From Sphingomonas sp. BT-65 (lineage in GTDB: Bacteria > Pseudomonadota > Alphaproteobacteria > Sphingomonadales > Sphingomonadaceae), in contig NZ_JAPCIA010000001.1 in the NCBI RefSeq assembly GCF_026107375.2, positions 1,178,001 through 1,242,000 on the forward strand: 64,000 nt of DNA, read 5' to 3'. The notes beneath the pieces are model-generated. The model saw nothing but the letters and a program-made list of their open reading frames with translations, was not told the DNA's origin and did no database searches. Positions within the stretch are counted from its first letter, which is position 1. Every line of letters starts with the position of its first letter. Below are positions 58,071 through 61,097 of the stretch, in pieces. Both the position numbers and the translations under genes were made by a program.

Positions 58071-58224
58071 ATGCAGAACCGGGTTCCCGTGAAGCGCGAG
58101 GAGCGGCCGGCGCTGCCCGACTTCACGCCGGTGCCGCGCCGGGCGCGCCATGACGGGTGGGCGCCCGAGCGGCAGCGGGCGTTCATCGAGGCACTCGCAG
58201 ATACCGGCTGCGTCAGCCGCGCGG
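58071..58224 (+). pseudogene. Truncated 5' fragment of a conserved sphingomonad gene
   Basis: After a strong AAGGAGGGG the frame reads MQNRVPVKREERPALPDFTP, VPRRARHDGWAPERQRAFIE and ALADTGCVSRAA. This is the N-terminal signature (FTPVPRR..HDGWTPERQR.FI.ALA.TG.V..AA) of a DNA-binding-like hypothetical protein frequent in sphingomonads. Beyond CVSRAA the expected helix-turn-helix continuation is replaced by unrelated, low-quality sequence up to the end of ruvB at 58301. The 3' part was probably lost by deletion. The family identification is from memory of the motif. Confidence 0.55.
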
Positions 58225-58300
58225 CGCCCCCGGCACGGACTTGGATTGCCGGAAGCAATCCAACCCAGCACTCCCTCCGGGAGGAATTTCTTCTCACTCC

Positions 58301-59329
58301 TCACTTACCGTCGAACAACCCGTCCTGCGCGCCCGCCGGCGGGTGGAGGCCGAGATGCTTCCAGCCGGCCGCGTTGAGGCAGCGGCCGCGCGCCGTCCGG
58401 GCGATCATGCCGATCTGGATGAGGTAGGGCTCGATCACTTCCTCGATCGTGTCGCGCGGCTCGGAGAGGCCGGCGGCGAGCGTCTCGACGCCGACCGGGC
58501 CGCCCTTGTAGATGTCGGCGATCATGGTGAGGTAGCGGCGGTCCATCGCGTCGAGGCCGAGCGCGTCGACCTCGAGCCGGTTGAGCGCAGCGTCGGCGGC
58601 CTTGGCGTGGACGGTGGTCTCGCCCGCGACATTGGCGAAGTCGCGCACGCGGCGCAGCAGGCGGCCGGCGATGCGCGGGGTGCCGCGTGAACGGCGCGCG
58701 ATCTCGGCCGCGCCGTCGGGGGCGATGTGCAGGTCGAGCAGGCCCGCGGCGCGCGTGACGACGCGCTGCAGCTCCTCGACCGTGTAGAATTGCAGGCGCA
58801 CGGGGATGCCGAAGCGGTCGCGCAGCGGGGTGGTGAGCAGGCCCTGGCGCGTCGTGGCGCCGACCAGGGTGAAGCGGGGAAGATCGATGCGCACGCTGCG
58901 CGCCGAGGGGCCCTCCCCGATCATCAGGTCGAGCGCGCGGTCCTCCATCGCGGGATAGAGCACTTCCTCGACCGCGGGCGCGAGGCGGTGGATCTCGTCG
59001 ATGAACAGGACGTCGCCGTCCTCGAGATTGGTGAGCAAAGCGGCGAGGTCGCCCGACTTGGCGATCACCGGGCCGGAGGTGGCGCGGAACCCGACGCCCA
59101 TCTCGCGCGCGATGATCTGGGCGAGCGTGGTCTTGCCGAGGCCGGGCGGGCCGAAGAACAGGACATGGTCGAGCGCGTCGCCGCGGGTGCGGGCGGCATC
59201 GATGAACACGCGGAGATTGTCGCGCGCCGCGCGCTGGCCGACGAACTCGTCGAGCGACTTGGGGCGCAGCGCCGCGTCGACGTCCTCGGGGCGGCGGGCG
59301 GCGGTGAGGATGCGGTCGGAGTCGGTCAT
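58301..59329 (-). CDS. ruvB: Holliday junction branch-migration ATPase RuvB
   Basis: 342-residue AAA+ motor. [15 protein letters not shown], Walker [16 protein letters not shown], Walker [10 protein letters not shown], sensor 1 [19 protein letters not shown] with arginine finger, and the C-terminal winged helix ([45 protein letters not shown]). Normally directly behind ruvA; here the two are 466 bases apart with a repeat-bounded GIY-YIG pseudogene between. Confidence 0.97.
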
Positions 59330-59346
59330 GCCCGCCGCCTCATGCC

Positions 59347-59376
59347 GTCATGCTGAACTTGTTTCAGCATCCATCG
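59347..59376 (+). repeat. REP-like hairpin (TGCTGAA stem), left copy
   Basis: 30 bases: GTCA, stem TGCTGAA, loop CTTGT, stem TTCAGCA, then TCCATCG. It is 29/30 identical to the reverse complement of 59739-59768. The stop codon of the GIY-YIG frame lies inside this repeat. Confidence 0.88.
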
Positions 59377-59693
59377 TGCCGCGGGCGACTGGCTAGCGGT
59401 TCCAGTCCAAGTGCCGGAGCAAGGTCCACCCAGTCCGGGTTCTCGGATTCGACCAGGTTGATCTTCCATTGCTGGTGCCAGCGCTTGAGTTGCTTCTCGC
59501 GCGCAATGGCCTCCGGCATCGTGGCGTAGAATTCGTAGCGGACCAGGATGTGGACGTGGTGGCGCGAGGTGAAGCCCGGGATCTCGCCGGATCGGTGTTA
59601 ATGCAGGCGGGCGAGCAGATCCGATGTCACGCCGATGCAGATCGTGCCCATCCGGTGGCTGGCGAGCAGATAGACGCAGGGTTGCTTGGGCAT
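59364..59693 (-). pseudogene. GIY-YIG nuclease, inactivated by one in-frame stop
   Basis: From ATG 59693 the frame reads MPKQPCVYLLASHRMGTICI GVTSDLLARLH, then TAA at codon 32 (59598-59600), then HRSGEIPGFTSRHHVHILVR, YEFYATMPEAIAREKQLKRW and KINLVESENPDWVDLAPALGL with no frameshift. In intact relatives the stop position is glutamine (LARLxQHRSG), so a single C-to-T change (CAA to TAA) explains it. The GIY motif is here VYLLAS...TICIG, with the second Tyr changed to Cys. The whole gene sits between two inverted REP-like hairpins, and its stop codon is supplied by one of them. Confidence 0.85.
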
Positions 59694-59738
59694 TGTTGCG
59701 CCCTTCTCGAAGGAACCGAGGATCAGTCGTCCGTGGCC

Positions 59739-59768
59739 CGGTGGATGCTGAAACAAGTTCAGCATGAC
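59739..59768 (-). repeat. REP-like hairpin (TGCTGAA stem), right copy
   Basis: Reverse complement of 59347-59376 with one mismatch. Together the two copies bound a 362-bp segment that contains essentially only the GIY-YIG gene and separates ruvA from ruvB. Confidence 0.88.
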
Positions 59769-59795
59769 GACAGAGAGGGTGGAGAGGGAGGCGCC

Positions 59796-60392
59796 TCACT
59801 TCGCCGCCTTCCGCAGCGCCAGCCGGACGAGCGCGTCGAGGCTGGCGCCCGGTCCCAGCTCGTCGCTGGCGGCGTTGACCGCGGCGCTTGCTTCGGCGGG
59901 CTTGAAGCCGAGGTTCATCAGCGCCGAGACCGCGTCGTTCGCCGCGCCGCTCGCCGGGAGCGCAGCCCCCGCCCCGCCGCCCAGTGCGATGCCGCCGGCC
60001 TTGTCCTTGAGCTCGTTGACGATGCGCTGGGCGAGCTTCGGCCCCACGCCGTTGGCCCGCGCGATCATCGCCGCATCGGCGCGGGCGACGGCGGTCTGGA
60101 CTTCGGCGGGCGAGAGGATCGAGAGGATGGCGAGCGCGACCTTGGCCCCCACCCCCTGCACGCCGGTAAGCAGGCGGAACCAGTCGCGCTCCTCGGCCGA
60201 CGCGAAGCCCATCAGGCGGATCGAGTCCTCGCTCACCAGCATCTCGGTATGCACCGTCACGAACTCGCCCAACGCGCCCAGCGCCGCCAGCGTCCTGGCC
60301 GAGGCGCCGACGAGATAGCCGACGCCGTTCACGTCGATCACCGCATGGTCGATGCCGGTCGCGGCGAGATGGCCGTTGAGATGCGCGATCAT
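59796..60392 (-). CDS. ruvA: Holliday junction-binding protein RuvA
   Basis: 198 residues, normal length. OB-fold N-terminus ([31 protein letters not shown]), two helix-hairpin-helix motifs ([42 protein letters not shown]) and the C-terminal RuvB-contact domain ([20 protein letters not shown]). RuvA tetramers grip the junction and load RuvB. A 14-bp perfect palindrome (60398-60411) lies just upstream of the start. Confidence 0.97.
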
Positions 60393-60599: not shown

Positions 60600-61097
60600 T
60601 CAGCGCAGCGCCCGCGCGCTCGCCAGATGGTGCGCGTGGCAGATCGCCACCGCGAGCGCATCGGCGGCATCCGCGCCGGCGATCTTCGCGCCGGGCAGCA
60701 GCCGCGCGACCATCGCGTGGACCTGCACCTTCTCGGCATTGCCAGTGCCCACCACCGCCTTCTTGACGAGGCGCGGCGCATATTCGCCGACGTCGAGCCC
60801 CGCGCGCGCCGCGGCGCAGATCACCACCCCACGCGCCTGGCCGAGCTTGAGCGTCGATTGCGGGTTGGCGTTGACGAACACTTCCTCGACCGCGGCGGCG
60901 TCCGGCGCGTGATCGGCGATCAGCGCGGCGAGCTGTCCGTCGAGATGCGCGAGGCGGCGCGGCAGCGGCGCGGCGCTGTCGGTCTTGAGCTGCCCGTTGG
61001 CGAGGTGCGAGAGGCGGTTGCCCTCGGCACGGATCAGCCCCCAGCCGGTGGTGCCGAGGCCGGGGTCGAGACCCAAGATCACCAGGGGCTTGATCAT
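60600..61097 (-). CDS. ruvC: Holliday junction resolvase RuvC
   Basis: 165-residue RNase-H-fold endonuclease. Catalytic acidic residues: Asp in [14 protein letters not shown], Glu in [22 protein letters not shown], and the late pair in [21 protein letters not shown] 61097 overlaps the stop of the upstream exported-protein gene (TGATG), so the two are coupled. Ends before a 207-bp gap to ruvA. Confidence 0.96.

Follow-up and report, generated by a model that had tools for sequence, protein, structure and literature searches.

The window, a stretch of 64,000 nucleotides from the genome of Sphingomonas sp. BT-65, holds a small GIY-YIG nuclease gene, enclosed by two facing hairpins, between ruvA and ruvB. 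The three ruv genes and the nuclease frame are all read from the minus strand: ruvB at 58301..59329, ruvA at 59796..60392, and ruvC at 60600..61097, the last named from its sequence and with its start codon picked within a longer open reading frame. Just past the end of ruvB, at 58071-58300, a short open frame resembles the cut-off start of a longer gene and has the look of a fragment. Between ruvA and ruvB lies a unit of 424 bp (59346..59769; minus, by the strand of its gene), with limits set by the CGTC tags of its facing repeats; the corresponding unit in L126, a Sphingomonas MAG, is equally long. The left hairpin (59346..59373, plus strand) consists of a CGTC tag at 59346-59349, an 8-bp stem, a 5-nt loop, and a CCA tail, and the right hairpin (59742..59769, minus strand) is an inverted copy of it. 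The two facing copies of the 30-nt hairpin repeat are identical at 29 of 30 positions, and the CGTC tags at the two ends of the unit point outward. A single GIY-YIG frame (59364..59693) takes up nearly the whole space between them, and its terminal TGA (59366-59364) falls within the left hairpin; the hairpin-boxed frame and the embedded stop codon, both reported in an earlier note on this DNA, are thereby confirmed. Taken together, the data presented here suggest that the unit is probably the decayed form of a two-part system, consisting of a one-domain GIY-YIG nuclease and its own CGTC REP, which boxes the gene and is scattered as dimers.

With its internal stop read as X, the nuclease frame (59693-59364) scores 42 bits against the Pfam GIY-YIG profile PF01541 (cut-off 22.6). 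It shares its domain with UPF0213 and other single-domain GIY-YIG proteins (PDB 1zg2 and 1ywl), to which the profile matches are weak (E 7e-5 and 0.004) and for which we know of no tie to cognate hairpins; Rfam, searched at the gathering score, and NCBIfam gave no match. Codon 32 is a TAA stop (59598..59600), and codon 19 (59637..59639) encodes Cys where most relatives have the Tyr of the second motif, which confirms the earlier reading of this copy as dead. The conserved Tyr, Arg, Glu, and Asn of GIY-YIG domains are catalytic residues. They are invariant or almost so across 23 relatives, and the set is incomplete in the window copy, where the second-motif Tyr is gone and the frame is truncated. 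A PF01541 profile search of the window genome found no second copy of the gene; the single further match lies inside a 741-aa open frame that, judged by its length, we take to be UvrC. An orthologue with an open frame is present in L126, where the protein is 83% identical and the unit, again of 424 bp, occupies the ruvA-ruvB junction.

The protein family is large. Relatives of the window protein (E 1e-3 or better) occur in 137 of 199 genomes of the host family, with up to 11 per genome. A wider set comprised the best 80 of 564 qualifying loci from named genomes, chosen by protein similarity alone; by their record titles, these 80 include Gammaproteobacteria, Planctomycetes, Chloroflexi, Nitrospirae, Bacteroidetes, and Neisseria, as well as many metagenome assemblies, and their hairpin stems and loops vary between taxonomic groups. 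Relatives were found in only 32 of 72,556 plasmid records, 31 of the 32 being typed as non-mobilizable, and in none of 50,697 phage records. An origin from a phage, a plasmid, or a defence system was rejected on these counts and because PADLOC matches were only marginal.

The hairpins fall into a class with a published description. CGTC REPs form one of the two great REP superfamilies. Di Nocera et al. (2013; PMC3733652), who record them from five phyla, state that they 'lack a dedicated transposase' and leave open how they arise and spread without one. By fit to this description (PMC3733652), in which stems measure 8-9 bp and loops 4-5 nt, the window hairpins are CGTC-type REPs, sharing the tag, the 8-bp stem beginning with A-T, the 5-nt loop, the CCA tail, the arrangement in head-to-head heterodimers, and an alpha-proteobacterial host; the REP-like character suggested earlier is thus borne out. 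The paper (PMC3733652) reports no dedicated enzyme for the repeats, whereas here they enclose a GIY-YIG gene, and gene and repeat correspond in type. With up to three mismatches allowed, the 4.08-Mb genome contains 14 copies of the hairpin motif and none of the motif read backwards, so that its presence is not a product of chance. Outside the unit, its occurrences fall in 11 head-to-head dimers with a different stem type at each end. The dimers are near-identical and measure about 93 bp (nine are exactly 93 bp and two are shorter by one base), copies too alike to reveal any covariation among themselves. Across genera at the ruvAB site, in contrast, stems have changed on both sides with pairing kept, leaving one broken pair in 35 hairpins (15 upstream and 20 downstream, from 20 loci), which were collected with a finder that accepts at most one mismatch. 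When the joined flanks of ten dimers were looked up in ten relatives, the hairpin core was missing from the relatives in 14 two-sided comparisons over 6 sites, in drifted intergenic DNA where the junctions are not base-precise; two further comparisons were one-sided, and one locus, L209, spanning 995 bp, was left unscored.

The association between gene and hairpins, proposed in the earlier note from this single locus, proved to be real, specific, and far above control. Among the best 80 of the 564 qualifying loci, 71 had 250 bp of flank on both sides and were scored together with 768 control ORFs from the same loci. Correctly oriented CGTC hairpins were present on both sides of 40/71 relatives versus 1/768 controls, and on at least one side of 61/71 versus 32/768. 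When inverted repeats were scored blind to the motif, 49/71 relatives reached 18 or more, versus 1/768 controls. Of the 71 relatives, 10 carry a strict hairpin on neither flank and 12 score below 12, that is, show no clear inverted repeat, which indicates that the hairpin box is common rather than universal. The genes also have an excess of neighboring hairpins that face the wrong way (25/71 and 22/71 versus 21/768 and 21/768; on both sides, 11 versus 0), perhaps reflecting whole dimers nearby. Within the host family, the 29 top-ranking loci outside the window genome include 23 with paired inverted hairpins, and two of the six unpaired loci (L030 and L034) lie near contig ends and were examined at the wrong position. 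A Neisseria gonorrhoeae record, L180, holds a relative of the window protein (59% identity to the first row of the alignment) whose gene is boxed by hairpins of the ATTCCC type, which Di Nocera et al. (PMC3733652) equate with dRS3 repeats.

These counts bear on another view, according to which the hairpins are mere transcription terminators or RNA stabilizers of a small gene. A stop codon embedded in the downstream hairpin of the window unit would suit such a function, as would the G[C/P/S] that directly precedes the stop codon in many relatives. However, just 1 of 163 short control ORFs carries both hairpins, and a terminator would not account for the upstream hairpin, the inverted orientation, or a hairpin type specific to the subfamily. 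We consider a purely transcriptional role very improbable.

The association is also specific to type. An added set of 40 weaker matches from 22 genomes of the host family retains the box: by the strict motif, both hairpins are present at 17/40 and at least one at 24/40, and a motif-blind score of 12 or more, which 33/768 controls attain, is found at 37/40. Single genomes hold several GIY-YIG paralogues with different hairpins, as many as four kinds each in G087, G104, and G122. Between genomes, protein identity correlates with hairpin similarity at 0.628 over 63 of 67 loci, the remaining four lacking a clear inverted repeat. Shuffling hairpins only among the paralogues within each genome lowers the correlation to 0.32 +/- 0.06, and the observed value was attained in 0 of 2000 shuffles, which removes host taxonomy as the cause, although not the co-inheritance of linked DNA. 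Nuclease and hairpin types thus covary beyond the host genome, as linked DNA could also do by co-inheritance.

A correspondence is also seen in trans, among 199 genomes that belong to one family and are therefore not independent. The CTTGT hairpin is present in 86 of the 199. Ten or more copies occur in 30/58 genomes in which the gene has a strong match versus 6/141 in which it has none of that strength, and in 19/58 versus 6/141 (p = 2.6e-7) after two hairpins have been subtracted for each gene match. For a second hairpin type, cognate pairing gives 18/27 versus 13/172, a count that includes the flanking hairpins. Carriers of only the other type's gene show no enrichment (2/14 and 3/45). The cut-offs for a strong gene, 1e-28 for the CTTGT type and 1e-33 for the second type, were picked after the tables had been seen. 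The correspondence is imperfect in both directions: 16 strong-gene genomes contain fewer than three CTTGT hairpins, and G070, G136, G142, and G177 contain 12-23 of them and no GIY-YIG match, which seems to reflect either REPs outliving their gene or gaps in draft assemblies. Overall, where a hairpin type is abundant, its cognate gene tends to be present as well. Y1 transposases are the enzymes of the other REP superfamily. A PF01797 search for Y1/RAYT transposases found none in 11 of 12 REP-rich genomes, the window genome (G000) among the 11, a result that suits the RAYT-like role which the earlier note proposed for the GIY-YIG endonuclease.

Evidence bearing on movement comes from the sister, or second, type. 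In G071, this type occupies nine sites where flanking identity drops to background (L357-L365): five hold gene-bearing copies that are 94-97% alike, two hold one internally deleted form, and the other two hold a shorter deleted form. The reading frame is uninterrupted along the whole match in four of the five genes, and mean pN/pS among the five is 0.35, on few changes. A deleted copy of the genome's own unit is found at another site in G168 (L373/L374), and G021 has three copies at unrelated sites that are 96-99.8% alike and have broken frames (L278/L283/L288). In G071, the sister type therefore shows what is expected of an autonomous transposable element, namely gene-bearing copies at unrelated sites accompanied by deleted copies, whereas the window's type is represented by one gene copy in its genome. 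The suggestion of a small mobile unit is thus half right: the sister type forms such copies, but the position of the window unit itself, between ruvA and ruvB, is old and widespread.

The boundaries of the sister-type copies admit another explanation, in which both units and dimers are passengers, moved by a different enzyme that recognizes the hairpins or sequence outside them. The segment that is repeated in G071 and G021 continues for about 20-48 bp outside the hairpins, which implies either that the hairpins are not the true ends or that another element is involved, and the shared outside sequence of the sister-type units (G071, G168, and G021) carries GCGGAC/GTCCGC motifs, as if these units had inserted into, or moved with, another repeat. 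That the moved copies in G021 have broken frames points the same way. Neutral passengers, however, would not be expected to have gene-specific hairpin types or the cognate pattern in trans, and Y1 transposases are absent by the PF01797 search. We regard the passenger reading as unlikely.

A comparison of flanks across 70 sphingomonad loci placed 20 at one common site, 9 at another, and 25 at unshared sites. The 20-locus site is the ruvA-ruvB junction, with ruvB seen in 20/20 and ruvA in 19; L041, L120, L138, L155, L122, L126, and L072 likewise lie at this junction. A recurring unit length of 403 bp (8 of 23 paired loci) was set aside as a sign of mobility because synteny places most such loci at this one orthologous site. 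At least 16 of the 199 host-family genomes, from 14 genera, carry a GIY-YIG gene no more than 300 bp from ruvB (15 by matching of coordinates by eye, and G019 via L026), and ruvA follows on the far side in the 12 of them that were inspected there, all but G066, G165, G002, and G191. Two more genomes give partial views: in G104 ruvB was seen about 0.5 kb from the gene and ruvA was not, and in G016 ruvA was seen next to it and ruvB was not. This distribution does not support a unit that has newly split ruvA from ruvB, as the earlier note had supposed.

Nor is the arrangement uniform. At 29 ruvB loci of other family genomes, selected as encoding the most similar RuvBs, two carry a GIY-YIG gene and 15 have a ruvA-ruvB gap of 0-170 bp with no GIY-YIG gene, so that the junction can indeed be tight, as had been assumed; within the window's own genus, its spacing varies widely. 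The gene runs opposite to ruvAB at the 20-locus site (for example, L023, L031, and L036) and in the same direction in the window, L126, L041, L072, L120, L122, L138, and L155, so that the unit has either been inverted across its hairpins or inserted more than once at a favored site. The distribution and the two orientations together mean that the ruvA-GIY-ruvB order, which would have spoken against a mobile unit if ancestral and fixed, is ancient and present in many genera, without being fixed or confined to one orientation. The close relative G227 retains one hairpin at this position, and the junctions of G242 and G204 have none. On a poorly resolved tree of 72 proteins (101 columns), 28 site changes are needed, against a minimum of 8, and well-supported branches force several relocations. 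We read this history of the units as one of long residence with occasional moves.

Long residence would also be expected of a nuclease that serves its host. Ssn proteins (Chenal et al., Nat Commun 2025) are reportedly small, site-specific nucleases of the GIY-YIG superfamily that cut single-stranded DNA, have cognate repeats, and were first studied in Neisseria; the study is said to concern ssDNA cutting and natural transformation. By this definition, the proteins described here resemble Ssn in size, domain, and possession of cognate repeats, and the gonococcal relative L180 falls in the same family. An Ssn-like enzyme would cut its cognate repeats in incoming or replicating ssDNA and thereby tune DNA uptake or recombination; the repeats would be target sites rather than offspring, and the gene would be kept by selection and inherited vertically. 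Consistent with this, the gene has long resided at ruvA-ruvB in many genera, relatives' frames are mostly open, pN/pS among the G071 copies is low (on few changes), relatives are rare on plasmids and absent from the phage records, and L180 is boxed by dRS3-type hairpins. A host-serving role leaves unexplained the gene-bearing and internally deleted copies at nine G071 sites, as well as the relocations forced on the protein tree. We see it as a substantial possibility that falls somewhat short of even. The REP superfamily, the deleted copies, and the relocations are what the present analysis adds to the Ssn picture, some of which the Ssn paper may itself cover.

For the two-part system that we favor, the following sequence of events can be envisaged. 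The GIY-YIG protein would recognize its own hairpin, probably as a single strand, and cut near the tag or stem, a step of the kind reported for Ssn. GIY-YIG enzymes are thought to hydrolyze DNA without a covalent intermediate, and joining would therefore fall to the host, whose replication and repair may copy or join the ends elsewhere. Hairpin-ended segments, mainly short dimers, would spread in this way at a low rate. The window unit would then have occupied the ruvA-ruvB junction for a long time and lost its gene, and 11 dimers are still present in the genome. A bolder form of the proposal holds that CGTC REPs in general are spread by a dedicated one-domain GIY-YIG nuclease and that the units are minimal transposons of a new chemistry, recently active in G071. 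In that case, hydrolytic cutting at hairpin ends followed by host joining would give rise to gene-bearing units, deleted units, and short dimers alike. This extension is offered tentatively, and we would sooner doubt than assert it.

The system resembles a REPtron in the way it works, without being a RAYT system. As with RAYTs and their REPINs, a nuclease gene lies between inverted REPs, short dimers are dispersed, the gene is mostly resident, and there is no target-site duplication; unlike them, the enzyme is a GIY-YIG protein rather than a Y1/HUH transposase, and the tag is CGTC rather than the GTAG of RAYT REPs. The parts, that is, the GIY-YIG domain, CGTC REPs, and, as reported, Ssn nucleases with cognate repeats, were known. 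What appears new is that CGTC REPs have a GIY-YIG gene for a partner, in the place described as empty in PMC3733652, and that gene-bearing copies occur together with deleted ones: a literature search outside preprints and most subscription papers found neither, nor any paper joining GIY-YIG proteins with REPs. A GIY-YIG nuclease may be the enzyme that this common class of dispersed repeats had seemed to lack. A cognate nuclease makes the spread of CGTC REPs testable, with multi-paralogue genomes providing several independent gene-hairpin pairs and G071 being a genome in which copies with the gene and deleted ones can both be followed. Such a nuclease would also link the Ssn nucleases to REP biology, and many natural hairpin-specific nucleases would become available as tools.

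The immediate surroundings of 140 units were compared at their ends. Target-site duplication was rejected as a general feature, with none above chance in this set: duplications of 2 nt were seen 4 times versus 5.75 expected, of 3 nt twice versus 1.2, and of 4 nt twice versus 0.4. In the nearest 10 nt, the sequence is pyrimidine-rich before the units (0.63-0.81) and purine-rich after them (0.68-0.73), a bias that returns to background within 20-30 nt.
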